From Caulobacteraceae bacterium PMMR1 (lineage in GTDB: Bacteria > Pseudomonadota > Alphaproteobacteria > Caulobacterales > Caulobacteraceae), in assembly GCA_000733915.1 (NCBI GenBank), contig JPOM01000001.1, positions 1,116,001 to 1,180,000 on the forward strand: DNA of 64,000 bases. Direction: 5' to 3'. Of the stretch, positions 48,178-55,398 are shown piece by piece. Made by a program: the position numbers and the translations under genes. The notes under the pieces are model-generated. The model made no database searches. It was not told the origin of the DNA and saw only the letters and a list, made by a program, of their open reading frames with translations. The first letter of the stretch is position 1. Each line of letters begins with the position of its first letter.

Positions 48178-51100
48178 CTACTCGACGGGCTCAGGGTTCC
48201 TCTCAGCACGGGCGCGCAACGATTCATAGAGCTGCGCTGGACCCAGCAAGATCGACTTCAGCCCCTCTCTGACCTTCTTCGAGTCGAGCGCCTGCTTGCT
48301 CATGGTCTGATGCGCGTCCAGCGCATCCATGATGGCACCGAGCAGCGCATCGTCGAGCGTGGGCGAGTTGGCGAACTGCGCCTTTGTGTTGTTGGCCGCT
48401 TGTGAGACGAGCACGTCGGACTCCAACATCTTCCCCTTGATGACGTCGTTGACGTAGACGAGCTGATCGCCCTCCGTCAGGTCGCCAGTGAAGAGCTCGT
48501 TCACGAGCGCGATGATCTCGGCCAGCAACGCCGTGTTCTTGTCCTGGACGGCGCCCGAGCCGGCTTCGCCTAGCGGCGCAATCTTGGGCGCGTCGTCGCC
48601 CCCGAGCGCGAACGGGCGCTTGCCCAGGCTCTTTAGCTTGTGATGGGTCATAGTCAGCGAAGACAGATCGACCGTGTTGCGCTCGCGGCCGAATTCCAGG
48701 AGTCGACCGAGGTACTTGTAAAAGAGGAAGCGCTTTTCGATGTCCGTGCTTCCGTAGTCGAAGATCTGGGACAAGAACGTGTAGGCGCTGACGAAAGTTG
48801 CCATATCGGTCTTGAACAGGGCGAGGGCGTCCATCGCGTCCATCGCGTCCTTCGCGCGCTTCTCAGCCTCCTTGTCACCGCTTTCGCGCGCTCCGGTCCA
48901 TTCCGCTTTGGCTGCCGCATAGCGCTTGATCAGTCGGTCGGCGACCGGCTCGATCGCGGCGAACAGCTTGTTCTGTTCGGGGCGAGGGTTCAGGACCGCC
49001 GACGCGACCCGGTCGACTTCGAAGTCGTCGTAGTGGCCAGAGGCGTCGAGCTTGTGGCGCAGGTCGTAGATCAGGTTCGGATCGGTGACGCCCGAAAGCG
49101 CTGCGGTCTCGTAATAGGTCTGGAACGCGGTCAGCACCTCGTCGGCGCTGTTCACAAAGTCCAGGACGTAGGTGGTGTCCTTGCCCTGATACGCACGGTT
49201 CAGCCGGGAGAGCGTCTGCACCGCCTGAATGCCGGCGAGCCGCCGATCGACATACATGCCGCAGAGCAGCGGCTGGTCGAAGCCCGTCTGGAATTTGTTG
49301 GCGACAAGAAGCAGGTGGTATTCGGCGCCTTTGAACGCGTCGCGGATGTCGCGCCCGTTCAGGCCGGGGTTCAGCGCGGCGCCGGTCTCCGTAAACGGCG
49401 CCTCGCCCGACTCCGGATCGTTCACCTCGCCGGAGAAGGCGACCAGGGTTCCCAGGCCATAGCCGCGCTCGGCGATATAGCGGTCGATGGCGAGCTTCCA
49501 GCGGACCGCTTCCTTCCGGCTGGCCAGCACCACCATCGCCTTGGCCTTGCCGTCCAGCAGCGGCTGCACGTTCTCGCGGAAGTGCTCGACGACGATGCGG
49601 ACCTTCTGGCTGATGTTGTGGGGGTGCAGCCGCACCCACTGCATGATGCCCTTGGTCGCCGCGCTGCGCTCGACCTCGACCTCGCTCAGCTCTTTGCCCT
49701 GGTGGGCCAGTCGGAAAGCCAGCTTGTAGGGCGTGTAATTCTTCAGCACGTCGAGGATAAAGCCCTCCTCGATCGCCTGGCGCATGGAATAGACGTGGAA
49801 CGGCACAGGCACACCGTCGGGGCCGGGCCGGCCGAAGAGCTGCAGCGTCTTGGCCTTGGGCGTGGCCGTGAAGGCGACATAGGTCACGCCCGTCTCGCCG
49901 GCGCGGGCGGCCATCTGCGCGGCCAAGAGGTCCTCGGTGTCCACCTCGCCGCCGTCCGCCAGCTCGGCGATCTCTTCGGCCGAGAGCACGGCCTTCAGCT
50001 TGGCGGCGGCTTCACCGGTCTGGCTCGAGTGCGCCTCGTCGGCGATCACGGCGAAGCGCTTGCCCTCGGTGGCCGCGAGCTTGCGCACTTCTTCTAGGGC
50101 GAAGGGAAAGGTCTGGATGGTGCAGACCACGATCTTTTTCCCCGCCGCCAGCGCCTGGGCCAGCTGGCCGCTCTTGGCGCCGGCTTCGGAGCGGATCGTC
50201 TCCACCACGCCCTGGGTGCGCTCAAAGCCGAAGATCGCCTCCTGCAGCTGGCCGTCGATCACCCGCCGGTCGGAGACGACGATCACGCTGGAGAACAGCT
50301 TGCGGTCCTGCGCGTCGTGCAGCTCGGAGAGGAAGTGCGCCGACCAGGCGATCGAGTTGGTTTTGCCCGATCCGGCCGAGTGCTGGACCAGGAACTTGCC
50401 GCCCGCCCCCTCAGCCAGCACCTGCGCCTCCAGCTTCCGGGTGACGTCCAGCTGGTGATAGCGCGGGAAGATCAGGCTCGTGATCGCCCGCTTCTCGTTC
50501 CGTTGCGCCACCATGTAGCGGCCGAGGAGTTCGAGCCAGCTGTCGCGCGCCCACACCTCTTCCCACAAATAGGCGGTGGGGTGGCCCACGGGCGGGATCG
50601 GATTGCCCTTGCCCCCCCGGTCGCCCTGGTTGAACGGCAGAAAGCGGGTGGCCGGCCCCTCCAGCTTGGTCGTCATCATCACTTCGCGGTTCGACACGGC
50701 GAAATGGACCAGCGCGCCGGAGGGGAAGCTCAGCAGCGGCTCGGCCGCGCCGCCCTTGGGCCGAGGCAGGCGGTCAAAGCGGTATTGATCGACCGCGTCC
50801 TCCACGCTCTGAGTGAAATCGGTCTTCAGCTCGACCGTGGCGGTGGGGATGCCGTTCAGGAACAGCACGAGGTCGAGGCTGTTCTCGTTCGCCGTCGAAT
50901 AGCGCACCTGCCGCACCACGCGCAGGCGGTTGGCGGCGTAGCGCGCCATGATGTCGGGGTTCATGCGCAGCGCCGGCTTGAACTGGGCGAGCGAAATCGA
51001 CCCTCGCGCCCCGATCATCTCGATGCCGTGGCGCAGCACGTCCAGCGTCCCGCGGTCGTCGAGAGACTTGCGCACCCGGTCGAGCAGCACAGCCTCCGCC

Positions 51101-51336
51101 GCTGGTCCGTGCGAAGCCTGAAGCGCCGCCCACGCCTTGGGCTGGGTTTCCTGCACCCAGGCGATCAGGTCGGCGGGGAACAGGGCGCGCGCGCGGTCAT
51201 AGGCCTTCGCATCGTCCCAAGCGTAGAGCCAGCCCTTGGCCGCCAGGGCGTCGCACACCTCCGTCTCGAACGTGAGCTCTTCATGAACCGCGCCGACGCG
51301 GGGACCGGACGGGAGGGGGTATTCCAGCGGGCTCAT
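48178..51336 (-). CDS. hsdR: Type I restriction enzyme, R subunit
   Basis: This 1052 aa subunit is the motor and nuclease of a type I restriction-modification complex. The PD-(D/E)xK nuclease is near the N terminus, with D155 in NSLDLVLFL and E169-L-K171 in ATVELKTDF. The helicase follows: Walker A HSAGSGKT at 319-326, DEAH at 433-436, TYVAFTATPKAKTL, and the second helicase lobe with VANKFQTGFDQPLLCGMYVD and QTLSRLNRAY. The C-terminal part (about 850-1052) is the helical domain that docks on the methylase. The ATG at 51336 overlaps the stop of the GIY-YIG gene (ATGA). All key motifs are intact. Confidence 0.96.
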   Translation of the reverse strand: MSPLEYPLPSGPRVGAVHEELTFETEVCDALAAKGWLYAWDDAKAYDRARALFPADLIAWVQETQPKAWAALQASHGPAAEAVLLDRVRKSLDDRGTLDVLRHGIEMIGARGSISLAQFKPALRMNPDIMARYAANRLRVVRQVRYSTANENSLDLVLFLNGIPTATVELKTDFTQSVEDAVDQYRFDRLPRPKGGAAEPLLSFPSGALVHFAVSNREVMMTTKLEGPATRFLPFNQGDRGGKGNPIPPVGHPTAYLWEEVWARDSWLELLGRYMVAQRNEKRAITSLIFPRYHQLDVTRKLEAQVLAEGAGGKFLVQHSAGSGKTNSIAWSAHFLSELHDAQDRKLFSSVIVVSDRRVIDGQLQEAIFGFERTQGVVETIRSEAGAKSGQLAQALAAGKKIVVCTIQTFPFALEEVRKLAATEGKRFAVIADEAHSSQTGEAAAKLKAVLSAEEIAELADGGEVDTEDLLAAQMAARAGETGVTYVAFTATPKAKTLQLFGRPGPDGVPVPFHVYSMRQAIEEGFILDVLKNYTPYKLAFRLAHQGKELSEVEVERSAATKGIMQWVRLHPHNISQKVRIVVEHFRENVQPLLDGKAKAMVVLASRKEAVRWKLAIDRYIAERGYGLGTLVAFSGEVNDPESGEAPFTETGAALNPGLNGRDIRDAFKGAEYHLLLVANKFQTGFDQPLLCGMYVDRRLAGIQAVQTLSRLNRAYQGKDTTYVLDFVNSADEVLTAFQTYYETAALSGVTDPNLIYDLRHKLDASGHYDDFEVDRVASAVLNPRPEQNKLFAAIEPVADRLIKRYAAAKAEWTGARESGDKEAEKRAKDAMDAMDALALFKTDMATFVSAYTFLSQIFDYGSTDIEKRFLFYKYLGRLLEFGRERNTVDLSSLTMTHHKLKSLGKRPFALGGDDAPKIAPLGEAGSGAVQDKNTALLAEIIALVNELFTGDLTEGDQLVYVNDVIKGKMLESDVLVSQAANNTKAQFANSPTLDDALLGAIMDALDAHQTMSKQALDSKKVREGLKSILLGPAQLYESLRARAERNPEPVE

Positions 51337-52250
51337 GCGGGGGACGCGGTGGTTGCAGAGGCGAGCTGCTGCGCCTCCCACTCCTTGTAGGTCTGGCCGG
51401 TCGGCGTCTTCCATTCCACCGTGCCGTTCGCGGGGCGCCCGTTGACCACGGCAGCGGCGGCGCTGGGGCTGCTGAAGGCGTAGCTCTTGGCGAATACGCA
51501 GACCGGGCCCTCCGGCAGCAGCACCTTCTCGTTACGCAGTTCCTGGTGCAGCTGGGCGTAACTCGTCGCCTCCGAGCCCTTCCCCTCCCAAGCGAGGCGA
51601 GCTTTCGATCCGGCCTGCACGACGAACTCGCCTGCCACGAGTACGGCTTCGGCATGAACGCCGTGCTTCTTCGTTGTCAGGAGGAAGTGGGCTGGAGGGG
51701 GCGAGCTCGCAGTCGGCGGCGCAAGAGCGGCTTTTGTGCGCACTCGCTGGATGAACAGGTCTACGCGGACAGCGGGCAGCACCAGAAGGATGTTCTGCAG
51801 GAACGCCTCCATCTTCGACACGTCAGCTTCGCTGAGGGTCGGGCGTGGAGGGTTGGTGCCGTTGTCCAATCGGGTCCGGCCAACGACGCGGGCCTCCTCG
51901 ATGAGCCGCGCTTCCAGATAACGCACGTGGGCCTTGTTGAGCTTGTTCCCGGCCGTAACGACCAGAACGGCGGTGGTCCACCAGTCCTTCTTCAGGTCGT
52001 GGTTCTTTATGCGGCTGCCGATCTCTTCGCTCTCCCCGATGTAGGCTAGTGGCTCGCCCTCAAGCTCGCCGAGTAGAAGATAGACGCCCGCATACGCCGT
52101 CTCCGGGCGCGTCATCGCCTCCAGGAGCTGTGTGCGGGGAAGCATGAGGACATGCCCAGTCCAGTTGAACATCTCGGCGGTCAGCATGCCGTCGGGACGG
52201 CCGTCGATGTAGTAAAGCTCCAGGGAGCGGCCGAGCGCGGGCGCGGTCAT
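51333..52250 (-). CDS. GIY-YIG nuclease-domain protein with C-terminal DUF4357
   Basis: This 305 aa protein lies between hsdS and hsdR. The GIY-YIG core is complete: GVYLLLG (55-61), LAYIGESEEIGSRIKNH (YIG at 70-72, arginine at 80) and HVRYLEARLIEEA (metal glutamate at about 113). The middle is a linker. The last 60 residues, including VEWKTPTGQTYKEWEAQQ, match the DUF4357 module as I remember it. Both ends overlap neighbours by ATGA, so it is made with the restriction subunits. It may be an extra nuclease, a DNA-binding accessory or a control factor of the system. Its role is unproved. Confidence 0.85.
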   Translation of the reverse strand: MTAPALGRSLELYYIDGRPDGMLTAEMFNWTGHVLMLPRTQLLEAMTRPETAYAGVYLLLGELEGEPLAYIGESEEIGSRIKNHDLKKDWWTTAVLVVTAGNKLNKAHVRYLEARLIEEARVVGRTRLDNGTNPPRPTLSEADVSKMEAFLQNILLVLPAVRVDLFIQRVRTKAALAPPTASSPPPAHFLLTTKKHGVHAEAVLVAGEFVVQAGSKARLAWEGKGSEATSYAQLHQELRNEKVLLPEGPVCVFAKSYAFSSPSAAAAVVNGRPANGTVEWKTPTGQTYKEWEAQQLASATTASPA

Positions 52251-53569
52251 GCCGCCTCCGCCGCCTCAGGCTCGGCAACGAGCCCGCGCACGTCGATCTT
52301 GCCGGTGACCGCGGCGGAGATCAGGGCGGCTCGGCGTTCCTGCAACAAGGCGACGAGCCGCCGCTGCGCCTCCACCAACGCATCTATCTTCGCCGTCTCC
52401 CGGTCGAGGAAGTCGGCAATGGCCCGCTGCTCCGCGACGGATGGCGTCGAAATTTGCAGGTTGTCGAGGGCGTACTGACCAAGGCCAACACGGGTGAGTC
52501 CGTTTGCGCGTACCGCGACACTTGCCTTGGCGAAGGCACTGTCAAAGTACCTCTTCAAGAACGCGCCGTCGGCGACGGAGGATTTGGAACGGATAACTGC
52601 AAGATGATAGCCGCAGACCACGCCTGGGAGATTAGCGGGAACATAGGCGCTAATCGCTATATCGTCTGCTGTCTCCGAGTCTTTGGTCAATATCACGTCG
52701 CCCGCACGAAGACCGAACCGGCCGATTTGCTCGGCGCTGGCGCTCGCCTCCATGAAGCTGATCTCGCGGGTGATCAGATCATTGTAATATACGTCGGTGT
52801 AGTTGCAGAGTTGAACTGAAATTTGGCCTTCTACTGTTTTCTTATCAACGTTGCTGGGCATCACTGCAGCTAGCCGCTTCAGCGGCTTCACCTCCCAATG
52901 CGCGGGGATGTCGCCGAGCCAGGGGATGCCGGAGGGTTTGAGGGGGACGGAGGGGTCGAGGCCCTTGGTGACCGCGTGGGAGATGACGGCTTGGCGCTTC
53001 TCCTTCAGCAGCGAGATCAGCCGCCGCTGCGCCTCCACCAGCGCATCGATCTTCGCCGTCTCCCGGTCGAGGAAGTCGGCGATGGCCCGCTGCTCCGGAA
53101 GCGGAGGAAAGGCTAGGCCGAGCCCGCATAGGAACTCCCAGCCTACTCTCGGCATCTTAGCGCCGAAGGTAGACCCATCGAGAACAGATACTATCTCCCT
53201 CGTAAGTAGAGCATATGCAATAAAGCGAGATGAGGTTTTTGTTTCTGGCCGCAAGACGTGGAAATCGCCAACCGCCTCGCCAGAGAAAGCGGCGGCATGC
53301 ACCTTAGCAAGATACGGGCGCAACTTTCCGTAGAGAACATCTCCTTCCTTGAAAGCGACGCCATCCCCCTCAAATTCGGTTTCAGTCTCTACTAGCTTTC
53401 CAGACCAACCTTCGATGTTCTCTAGCCCCAAAGGTCGACTACGACTGCCCGCCCGCTCGGTTACAAGCCGCGTCTCGCGCTTCAGCGGCTTCACATCCCA
53501 ACCGCTCGGCACCTTCCCCAGCCACTCCACCCCGCTGTCCTTGTAGCTCGGATACTGCGGGAAGCTCAC
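52247..53569 (-). CDS. hsdS: Type I restriction enzyme, specificity (S) subunit
   Basis: This 440 aa protein reads the bipartite DNA target. It has two target-recognition domains, about residues 25-150 and 235-375. Each ends in the same helical spacer, EQRAIADFLDRETAKIDALV with EAQRR after it. Each is preceded by a WLG-x2-P-x2-W-x-VKPLKR segment, so the protein is an internal duplication. The spacers are encoded by two 78-bp direct repeats. The start is GTG at 53569 overlapping the hsdM stop, and the stop overlaps the GIY-YIG gene start. Confidence 0.95.
   Translation of the reverse strand: MSFPQYPSYKDSGVEWLGKVPSGWDVKPLKRETRLVTERAGSRSRPLGLENIEGWSGKLVETETEFEGDGVAFKEGDVLYGKLRPYLAKVHAAAFSGEAVGDFHVLRPETKTSSRFIAYALLTREIVSVLDGSTFGAKMPRVGWEFLCGLGLAFPPLPEQRAIADFLDRETAKIDALVEAQRRLISLLKEKRQAVISHAVTKGLDPSVPLKPSGIPWLGDIPAHWEVKPLKRLAAVMPSNVDKKTVEGQISVQLCNYTDVYYNDLITREISFMEASASAEQIGRFGLRAGDVILTKDSETADDIAISAYVPANLPGVVCGYHLAVIRSKSSVADGAFLKRYFDSAFAKASVAVRANGLTRVGLGQYALDNLQISTPSVAEQRAIADFLDRETAKIDALVEAQRRLVALLQERRAALISAAVTGKIDVRGLVAEPEAAEAA
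52356..52433 (-). repeat. hsdS direct repeat, copy encoding the C-terminal spacer
   Basis: These 78 bases match 53019-53096 with 3 differences. They encode the conserved helix after the second recognition domain. Confidence 0.95.
53019..53096 (-). repeat. hsdS direct repeat, copy encoding the central spacer
   Basis: This is the second copy of the 78-base repeat, in the same orientation 663 bp away. It encodes the conserved helix between the two recognition domains. Confidence 0.95.
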
Positions 53570-55398
53570 GCCGCCAGCTCCGCGATCATGCGGGTGATCC
53601 GCTCGGTCACCGCCTTCAGGTCGGCGTCGATCTCGTCGAGCGGGCGGGGCGGTTCGAAGACATAGAACTGGCGGTTGAAGGGGATCTCGTAGCCGACCTT
53701 GGTCTTGTCGGGGTCGATCCAGGCGTCCGGGGCGTGCGGCTTCACCTCGCGGTCGAAGTAGGCCTGCACGTCCTCCGACAGGGGCACGTTCTCGGTGTCG
53801 CGCAGGGCCGGGTCCGGCTGGGGCTTGCCCTTGTTCTTGCCCTTCTCGAAGCGGAGCACGCGGCCGGCCTCGTCCTTCAGCGGCCGCTCCACCGTGATGG
53901 TGCGATAGCCGAAGGCGGTGTTGGGCAGGATGCGCGAGAGGGGGGCGAGCTTGATCTTGCCGCCCTCGGGCGCGGCGGGCGGGGCCTCGCCCTCGCGCAC
54001 CACCACGCGCGTCTCCTTGCCCTGGGCGTCGGTCAGGATGGCGACCTGCGCCTCGACGCAGGCGCCGAACAGGCGGGTGATCTCGTCGATGTGCTCCTCG
54101 GCCAGCTCCTTACGCTTGGAGCCGAGGGACTTGCGCATCTTGCGCCAGAAGCCTGAGCCGTCGATCAGCTGCACCACGCCGCGGCGCTCGGGCAGCTTCC
54201 GGTTGGTGAGAATCCAGACATAGGTCGCGATGCCGGTGTTGAAGAACATGTCGGTGGGCAGGGCGACGATCGCCTCCACCAGGTCGTTTTCCAGGAGGTA
54301 GCGGCGGATTTCGCTCTCGCCTGATCCCGCCCCGCCGGTGAACAGGGGCGAGCCGTTGAGCACGATGCCGAAGCGGCAGCCGCCCTCCACCTCCGGCCGC
54401 ATCTTCGACAGCATGTGCAGCAGGAACAGCAAGCTCCCGTCCGACACCCGCGGCAGGCCGGGGCCGAAGCGCCCGGCGAAGCCGCGCTGCTCGTGCTCGT
54501 CGCGGACCACCTTTTCGACCTTCTTCCAATCCACGCCAAAGGGCGGGTTGGCGAGCATGTAGTCGAAGGTGCGGCCCGCATGGCCGTCCTCTGACAGGGT
54601 GTTGCCGAAGGCGATGTTGGAGACGTCCTGCCCCTTGATCAGCATGTCGGCCTTGCAGATGGCGTAGGACTCCGGGTTCAGCTCCTGGCCCGAAAGGGTG
54701 ACGCGGATGGTGGGGTTGGCCGCCTTCAGGTGCTCTTCGGCGACCGAGAGCATGCCGCCGGTGCCGGCGGTGGGGTCGTAGAGGCTGCGGACCACCTCCG
54801 GCCGGTGCAGGGCGTCGTCGTCCTCCACGAACAGGAGGTCGACCATCAGGCGGATCACGTCGCGCGGGGTGAAGTGGTCACCCGCCGTCTCGTTGGAGGC
54901 CTCGGCGAACTTGCGGATCAGCTCCTCGAACGCCAGCCCCATCTGCATGTTGGAGACGCGGTCGGGGTGCAGGTCGACGGCGGCGAACCGCTCGGCCACC
55001 TGGTAGAGCAGCTTGGCCCTGGCCAGCCGGTCGATCTGAACGGCGAACTCGAACCGCTCGAAGATGTCGCGGACTTCGGCCGAGAAGCCCTGGACGTAGG
55101 ACTCCAGGTTGCCGCGCACGTTGGCCGCGTCGCCCAAGAGGCGCTGCAGGTCCATCGGCGAGGTGTTGAAGAAGCCGTGGCCGGACTTTCGCCTCAGGAA
55201 AGGCTCGGGGTTGACCCCGGCCTTGCTGCGCAGCTCGAACTCGGCCAGCACCTCGGCCTTGGTGGGCGCCAGCACGCAGTCCAACCGCCGCAGCACCGTG
55301 AAGGGCAGGATCACCTTGCCGTAGTCGGCCGGCTTGTAGTCGCCCCTTAACAGGTCCGCGACGGACCATATGAAGGCCGACAGCGCTTGCTGGTTCAT
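53566..55398 (-). CDS. hsdM: Type I restriction-modification system, methyltransferase (M) subunit
   Basis: This 610 aa adenine-N6 methyltransferase has the S-adenosylmethionine motif DPTAGTGGML (208-217) and the catalytic NPPFG (284-288). The N-terminal helical domain (about 1-150) and DHFTPRDVIRLMVDLL before the SAM site are typical of HsdM. The C-terminal region binds HsdS. At 610 aa it is somewhat longer than the EcoKI-type subunit (529 aa). The ATG at 55398 has GGGGAG about 8 nt upstream. It is the first gene of the operon, and the promoter must lie in 55399-55600. Confidence 0.96.
   Translation of the reverse strand: MNQQALSAFIWSVADLLRGDYKPADYGKVILPFTVLRRLDCVLAPTKAEVLAEFELRSKAGVNPEPFLRRKSGHGFFNTSPMDLQRLLGDAANVRGNLESYVQGFSAEVRDIFERFEFAVQIDRLARAKLLYQVAERFAAVDLHPDRVSNMQMGLAFEELIRKFAEASNETAGDHFTPRDVIRLMVDLLFVEDDDALHRPEVVRSLYDPTAGTGGMLSVAEEHLKAANPTIRVTLSGQELNPESYAICKADMLIKGQDVSNIAFGNTLSEDGHAGRTFDYMLANPPFGVDWKKVEKVVRDEHEQRGFAGRFGPGLPRVSDGSLLFLLHMLSKMRPEVEGGCRFGIVLNGSPLFTGGAGSGESEIRRYLLENDLVEAIVALPTDMFFNTGIATYVWILTNRKLPERRGVVQLIDGSGFWRKMRKSLGSKRKELAEEHIDEITRLFGACVEAQVAILTDAQGKETRVVVREGEAPPAAPEGGKIKLAPLSRILPNTAFGYRTITVERPLKDEAGRVLRFEKGKNKGKPQPDPALRDTENVPLSEDVQAYFDREVKPHAPDAWIDPDKTKVGYEIPFNRQFYVFEPPRPLDEIDADLKAVTERITRMIAELAA

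Follow-up and report, generated by a model that had tools for sequence, protein, structure and literature searches.

Type I restriction-modification (R-M) operons are usually taken as three-gene machines. Some of the closest described relatives of the system reported here add a second nuclease to such an operon or work as single proteins. TgvAB, from the type I operon of Vibrio cholerae VPI-2, is described as guarding against modified phages without HsdR activity (PMC11411939). CMoRE is reported to be one GIY-YIG protein acting as a type IV enzyme (PMC12923530). GIY-YIG enzymes with a winged helix (wH) that depend on N6-methyladenine (6mA) also exist, namely Ahi29725I and Apa233I, and the same source proposes GIY-YIG–RAMA fusions as possible 6mA-sensing type IV enzymes, naming them as a future target (PMC11037411). 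Here we analyse a type I operon of Caulobacteraceae bacterium PMMR1, in which a gene for a GIY-YIG/DUF4357 protein (the GIY gene) is embedded between hsdS and hsdR. It lies in a window of 64,000 nucleotides (contig JPOM01000001.1, positions 1,116,001 to 1,180,000; coordinates below are those of the window). The reading that we favour, with about even confidence, is that the embedded gene encodes an autonomous nuclease with a GIY-YIG and a RAMA-like domain, probably modification-sensing and likely anti-phage, which is carried as cargo in the hsdS-hsdR junction and is not a subunit of HsdMSR.

The four genes, in the order hsdM, hsdS, GIY gene and hsdR, all lie on the minus strand:

53566..55398, minus strand: hsdM, type I N6-adenine methyltransferase subunit, 610 amino acids (aa); Pfam N6_Mtase 1.1e-57 and HsdM_N 6e-27, PADLOC MTase_I 1.3e-267
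52247..53569, minus strand: hsdS, type I specificity subunit, 440 aa, GTG start; Pfam Methylase_S 2.1e-13 in two stretches, PADLOC Specificity_I 4.4e-114
51333..52250, minus strand: GIY-YIG/DUF4357 (RAMA-like) nuclease gene, 305 aa; PADLOC PDC-S14 7.1e-114, Pfam DUF4357 3.2e-15, conserved catalytic residues, AlphaFold2 model
51852..52178, minus strand: predicted GIY-YIG nuclease domain of the embedded protein, residues about 25-133 (Y57, Y70, R80, E113, N130); VIA-align fold matches, Pfam match in 17 of 27 family members
51348..51710, minus strand: C-terminal DUF4357 region of the embedded protein, RAMA-like, residues about 181-301; VIA-align match to the MPND-DNA complex 7ydw, weak Pfam RAMA matches
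48178..51336, minus strand: hsdR, type I restriction/translocase subunit, 1052 aa; Pfam HSDR_N 1.8e-14, SWI2_SNF2, ResIII and T1R_D3-like, PADLOC REase_I 9.8e-29

Neighbouring genes overlap at GTGA (53569-53566, hsdM/hsdS) and twice at ATGA (52250-52247, hsdS/GIY; 51336-51333, GIY/hsdR), so that all four genes and all three junctions described in an earlier note on this DNA were confirmed.

The placement of the GIY gene is best understood from what other operons carry at the same position. A search with HsdR in 398 similarly drawn Pseudomonadota genomes gave 67 rows in 61 genomes, of which 48 were used (the 19 dropped included many partial ones); two had no visible hsdS, leaving 46 hsdS-hsdR junctions. 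Six of these contain a GIY gene, and two contain other genes and are followed by a GIY gene after hsdR. The remaining 38 divide into nine gaps shorter than 150 bp, six of 293-664 bp and 23 longer than 900 bp. A defence-type gene is present in 21 of these 23 long junctions, identified in 19 of them by PADLOC and in two by Pfam alone (Schlafen in L112, Fic in L116); the L148 slot, likewise longer than 900 bp, had no family match, and the L137 slot and the genes of L068 fell outside the family scan. The families recognized by PADLOC in these slots are PDC-S11, GmrSD/Orf5/HEC-06, SoFic, PDC-S20, IetA, PtuA, PDC-S35, PDC-S15, PDC-S02, HNH and DarT/DarG. Some slots hold a second cargo next to the GIY gene, for example PDC-S11 (L151), AbiE (L045) or SoFic (L071). 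The hsdS-hsdR junction of the window's HsdR family is a defence cargo slot, and this explains why a GIY nuclease is embedded there. The survey is in line with an earlier suggestion in print that defence genes may use the hsdS-hsdR site as a recombination hotspot (PMC12255303). Since 27 of the 46 junctions hold a defence-type gene (six GIY and 21 others, in addition to a Septu-type insert in L062), the slot can serve as a search tool for new defences. In L062 itself, hsdM and hsdS are followed by an AAA ATPase plus a PtuB (Septu) match, hsdR and then the GIY gene; L068 has the same arrangement, with two genes sized like those of L062 in the slot. These two loci possibly combine three defences in one run.

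Equally telling is how often the GIY gene lives without hsd genes. Of 398 sampled Pseudomonadota genomes, among them that of the host, 42 have it. Forty loci from this wider sample, excluding the window (37 of the 41 other genomes, four weak or fragmentary ones being left out, and three from a search of relatives), comprise six with the order hsdS-GIY-hsdR, two with hsdS-hsdR-GIY and 32 without an hsd neighbour by the models used. We also took the 80 closest relatives among the matches listed, picked by similarity to the window's group. The 79 that gave a usable gene include 38 loci with hsdS-GIY-hsdR, 37 with no hsd genes and four with a partial or other hsd order; in the context counts L039/L150 and L040/L177 each appear to be the same genome counted twice. 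As the hsd detector was built from the window's HsdMSR family, it could have missed unrelated type I systems close to loci scored as having none; on plasmid L231 the GIY gene is carried by another type I system. The earlier note had suggested surveying how often the gene lies between hsdS and hsdR, and took a location mostly away from hsd operons to speak against its proposal. Such a location is indeed what the wider sample displays, while the 79 closest relatives listed are borderline (38 against 37). A gene with HSDR_N nevertheless lies within 10 kb of the GIY gene in 9 of 41 genomes, compared with about 0.26 expected under uniform placement from HsdR sites per genome that were counted by hand. 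The association of the GIY gene with hsd is thus not due to chance, yet it is not fixed.

The phylogeny points in the same direction. On a FastTree tree of 115 rows, which has some long branches and from which six broken, partial or odd fetched loci were left off (L191, with no usable gene, and five others), the hsdS-GIY-hsdR label requires at least 14 changes, nine of them forced by well-supported branches. The nearest rows to the window are three from Bradyrhizobium without hsd (L149 and L150 among them), two of which are identical, and relatives at 75-78 percent identity likewise lack hsd. The gene occupies several unrelated junctions: hsd, type III-like, BREX-like, moaC-moeA and others. 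In the identical Bradyrhizobium pair L039/L150, it closes a type III-like operon whose preceding genes encode an N6_N4 methylase, a ResIII helicase and a 215-aa protein; in L065, it comes after PglZ and BrxL (BREX-like); and in L183, an SNF2-type helicase gene precedes it, while a 256-aa gene and an N6_N4 methylase gene come behind it. On plasmids, the gene is part of hsd operons in Roseomonas, Rhodococcus and Acinetobacter and is flanked by other type I genes in Sphingobium, whereas in Acuticoccus and Rhodothermus it is separate from the annotated hsd genes. In 15 Rhodobacteraceae-type loci, all on one tree branch (L041, L043, L203, L205, L206, L214-L216, L218, L220-L223, L226 and L227), the order is moaC-GIY-moeA, with an exact 4-bp moaC overlap in 12. 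It is the hsd-less loci in both sets (32/40 and 37/79), the repeated changes of context, the hsd-less nearest relatives and the non-hsd operons that argue for the autonomy of the GIY protein.

Because these loci put a candidate defence nuclease inside a core cofactor operon, we weighed a housekeeping role, but set it aside as a general function: the 15 loci represent a single branch, and among 80 genomes of the Rhodobacteraceae-type family the GIY gene is present in 12 but at moeA in only two. Seventeen of 30 moeA loci of this family have the plain 4-bp moaC/moeA overlap and two have the GIY gene. A different insert, 1,019 bp long, separates moaC from moeA in L253 (G445), a genome without a GIY match. 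Elsewhere, members of the GIY family occur amid tetrapyrrole-methylase-type (cobalamin-like) genes (L053, L055 and L060; one L053 neighbour was confirmed with Pfam), and L077 (G049) has broken GIY pieces with stops at two nearby places, which we regard as decaying copies. Several small or mid-size neighbours of GIY genes have no match in the family libraries searched: the 215-aa gene of L039 (8885-9532), overlapping GIY by 4 bp, has no Pfam match, a gene in L044 (8939-10360) has none in Pfam or PADLOC, and a gene in L151 (9447-9992) has none in PADLOC. Relatives at 38 and 25 percent identity are present in the phage records MT835479.1 (unannotated) and PV036410.1, respectively; a scan of viral contigs with query P0002 gave no relative.

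As to the embedded protein itself, PADLOC model PDLC04923 (PDC-S14) matches it over residues 6-298 (7.1e-114). It belongs to PDC-S14, a phage defence candidate family already catalogued in PADLOC. This kind of protein is therefore not new, and the description of the locus as a poorly described defence variant was not supported, although we found no experimental test of DUF4357 or PDC-S14 and no published PDC-S14 mechanism in the open-licence literature. DUF4357 is the sole Pfam family to exceed its cut-off in the 305-aa protein. GIY-YIG stays below (14.6 vs 22.6 bits), and its model matches 17 of 27 diverse family members at E<=0.1. The active site is strongly conserved: all 64 close relatives keep G55, Y57, Y70, G72, E113 and N130, 63 of them also keep R80, and all seven residues are unchanged in each of the 27 more diverse members, bearing out the earlier impression of intact catalytic residues. 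The AlphaFold2 model (mean pLDDT 85.4, pTM 0.59) supports a GIY-YIG fold for residues about 25-133. The first ten VIA-align rows are all GIY-YIG proteins, led by plant Grx (2lwf, Z 8.4, rmsd 2.8 over 95 residues), with UvrC (Z 6.0, rmsd 2.9 over 81-82 residues), I-TevI (Z 5.1), CMoRE (9u75, Z 3.8) and Eco29KI (Z 3.8) further down. Searching solved structures by sequence, with either the full protein or the family profile, gave no meaningful relative. In Foldseek, neither the whole-protein nor the C-terminal model had a PDB match at E 0.001; the weak matches were viral GIY-YIG proteins, including viral intron-associated endonucleases (best 1.2e-3). Low dN/dS values, 0.03-0.15 in 8 of 11 gene pairs, indicate that selection acts on the GIY protein both within hsd operons and elsewhere; dS exceeds 1.5 in two of these eight pairs and is saturated in the remaining three of the 11.

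The C-terminal DUF4357 region resembles the DNA-binding RAMA domain, a resemblance drawn here for the first time. Folded alone, residues 181-305 gave a model with pLDDT 84.0 and pTM 0.73. Its best solved match in VIA-align is the MPND-DNA complex 7ydw (Z 6.2, rmsd 3.2 over 74 residues; the next match has Z 3.1). The part of MPND that was crystallised is a restriction enzyme adenine methylase associated (RAMA) domain, and its nearest structural relative is reported to be the RAMA domain of CcrM (PMC9963953). CcrM is not among the VIA-align rows, which excludes nothing. The Pfam RAMA model weakly matches 30 of 60 close family members (best 4e-5; the next family matches five) and 15 of 27 diverse members (best 2.8e-6; five other, unrelated families match one each). 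A structure-database search with a profile of the C-terminal part returned one chance-level match. We call the region RAMA-like rather than RAMA. DUF4357 has been reported as fused to GmrSD (PMC4619093), and it is on an McrB alias list of domains that are often fused to McrB or belong to larger families (PMC11090510). None of the papers listed in an open-licence literature search on the RAMA domain, MPND and N6-methyladenine contained DUF4357.

The operon surrounding this gene has what a type I system calls for: HsdM with an N6-methyltransferase domain, HsdS with two specificity domains and HsdR with nuclease and translocase domains. HsdMSR looks intact by its motifs, because the translations contain ANPPF and DPTAGTGG (HsdM) and GSGKT, DEAH and VELK (HsdR), which we take to be the respective subunit motifs. 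Scores below the NCBIfam cut-offs (153.8 vs 284.55 bits for hsdR; 96.1 vs 242.75 bits for hsdM) point to a divergent type I subtype. The lower GC content of the operon genes (0.60-0.68, compared with 0.70-0.72 in the flanks) suggests horizontal arrival, as does the patchy GIY gene: of 59 other genomes from the family and order of the host, 3 have it, one of these as broken pieces.

The leading alternative, in keeping with the earlier note, is that the GIY protein is an accessory subunit, which would bind HsdMSR and nick or trim HsdR-translocated DNA or control HsdR, and whose gene would be coupled to the others for stoichiometry. Coupling is indeed common: among 44 hsdS-GIY-hsdR loci, the GIY gene overlaps hsdS by 4 bp in 35 and hsdR by 4 bp in 23, and 16 have another gene, or no in-range start, ahead of hsdR. 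However, the GIY gene is similarly coupled in non-hsd operons, and the same 4-bp overlap with moaC in 12 of 15 loci means that an overlap reveals operon integration, not complex membership. Co-inheritance also has two sides. In a set of 40 loci, made up of the window's and 39 more, pairwise distances of HsdR and GIY correlate at 0.72 (Mantel p 0.001), which is above HsdR-HsdS (0.60) but below HsdR-HsdM (0.96; bootstrap range for the difference between the HsdM and GIY correlations, 0.04 to 0.55). The GIY gene travels with hsdR over long stretches, less faithfully than HsdM, in a test that is limited by the loci having been picked mostly for similarity to the window's GIY protein. This co-inheritance is real and leaves room for some functional link. 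The hsdS-GIY-hsdR order in 38 of the 79 closest relatives listed and the low dN/dS of the six hsd-context pairs (0.04-0.15) also fit a subunit; relatives at 75-78 percent identity without hsd and a slot taken by other defence-type genes instead do not. With 37 of the 79 closest and 32 of the 40 wider loci lacking hsd, and with such mobile contexts, membership in the HsdMSR machine is weakly supported. We judge the subunit explanation unlikely. The earlier note was right in what it observed and partly supported overall, but its R-M-complex reading is not favoured.

Two further explanations concern what the gene recognizes and how it spreads. The GIY protein might be a methylation-state partner, its RAMA-like domain reading the 6mA of type I, type III or BREX systems and the nuclease sparing or attacking DNA accordingly. 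Its recurrent neighbours fit this idea, being based on methyltransferases (type I; type III-like N6_N4_Mtase with ResIII; BREX-like PglZ with BrxL), but many relatives have no methyltransferase neighbour detectable by the few seed models, and that the neighbouring enzymes make 6mA is our assumption, which also counts against the idea. The 6mA-dependent wH-GIY-YIG enzymes provide a precedent (PMC11037411), whereas MPND displayed no 6mA preference in one study (PMC9963953). On balance, such a partnership seems rather improbable. Very unlikely, in our estimate, is a selfish, homing-type endonuclease gene that inserts at gene junctions and is tolerated in operons. The I-TevI fold match (Z 5.1), the weak Foldseek matches to viral intron-associated endonucleases, the placement at 4-bp overlaps in unrelated operons and the patchy distribution (3 of 59 other host relatives, one copy broken) are all in line with homing. 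Yet no constant target is apparent, the gene being found in hsd, type III-like, BREX-like, moaC-moeA and other settings, and its association with defence operons is strong. Moreover, unrelated defence-type genes also fill the hsd slots, so that it is the slot, and not the gene, that explains the placement.

The reading that we favour, an autonomous cargo nuclease, faces several difficulties of its own. The HsdR-GIY correlation of 0.72 and the 38 of 79 closest listed loci in hsdS-GIY-hsdR order exceed what purely random cargo would give. On their own, the two TgvAB genes were reported to give 10- to 100-fold less protection from several phages than the complete cluster does (PMC11411939). The window domain scores 14.3 bits with the Pfam RAMA model, whose cut-off is 35.2, and when hhalign compared the C-terminal alignment with 26 RAMA sequences of the CcrM type, the probability was 1.2 percent, which is not significant and falls among the values of 32 controls, so the RAMA assignment rests on the MPND structure match and the weak Pfam matches. 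As the MPND RAMA bound DNA without 6mA preference in that one study (PMC9963953), a RAMA domain may merely grip DNA. Finally, the host makes its own 6mA through HsdM and probably also through a RAMA-bearing frame of 437 aa that is likely to be CcrM, and a general 6mA-dependent nuclease would attack self. Simple 6mA-dependent cutting by the GIY protein is therefore unlikely.

How, then, might an autonomous cargo nuclease work? The N-terminal GIY-YIG domain (residues about 25-133) is predicted to cut DNA, and the C-terminal RAMA-like domain (about 181-301) would bind DNA and probably sense its modification state. Riding as cargo in the hsdS-hsdR slot, the gene would be expressed with the operon by virtue of its 4-bp overlaps. 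By analogy with TgvAB, we infer that the protein most likely restricts incoming DNA beyond the reach of HsdMSR, for example phage DNA with modified bases, in a type IV-like manner. Action on phage DNA, as raised in the earlier note, is plausible for a nuclease with an intact active site located between hsdS and hsdR. Should the protein indeed read modifications, a single operon would deal with unmodified phages (through HsdMSR) as well as modified ones. The DUF4357-RAMA link in turn gives a domain of unknown function a candidate role, binding of DNA or of modified DNA. A broader proposition, which we consider speculative and unlikely to hold in full, is that DUF4357 is an unrecognised RAMA branch and GIY-YIG-RAMA a methylation-reading nuclease module for type I, type III and BREX systems, a second effector acting on the same adenine self-label. 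Further work would be best spent on the RAMA-like assignment and on the inventory of the slot.

Compared with known systems, the 305-aa protein is matched by PDC-S14 over its full length, and we found no difference from that family. TgvAB is similar in that a second restriction system is present among hsd genes, but it consists of two GmrSD-type proteins instead of one GIY-YIG protein, and its modification dependence has been shown (PMC11411939), while that of the GIY protein is a probable one. SNIPE is also a single-gene defence with a GIY-YIG nuclease; it is described, however, as membrane-anchored and carrying DUF4041, with no DUF4357 in its description as available to us (PMC13190303). CMoRE (PD-T4-3) shares the layout of a single protein with an N-terminal GIY-YIG and a C-terminal sensing domain, and the weak fold match to 9u75 (Z 3.8). 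Nevertheless, the third tyrosine of its GIYxY-YIG motif (PMC12923530) is replaced here by leucine (L59 in the window protein) in 64 of 64 relatives, and on this ground we do not count the window protein as a CMoRE enzyme. The C-terminal part of CMoRE reportedly has no homologues (PMC12923530), whereas that of the window protein resembles RAMA. Parallels in this respect are Ahi29725I, Apa233I and the proposed GIY-YIG–RAMA fusions, all combining GIY-YIG with a putative reader of DNA modification (PMC11037411). In the two enzymes the reader is a winged helix; in the window protein it appears to be a RAMA-like domain, in a gene family that is often found inside R-M operons.

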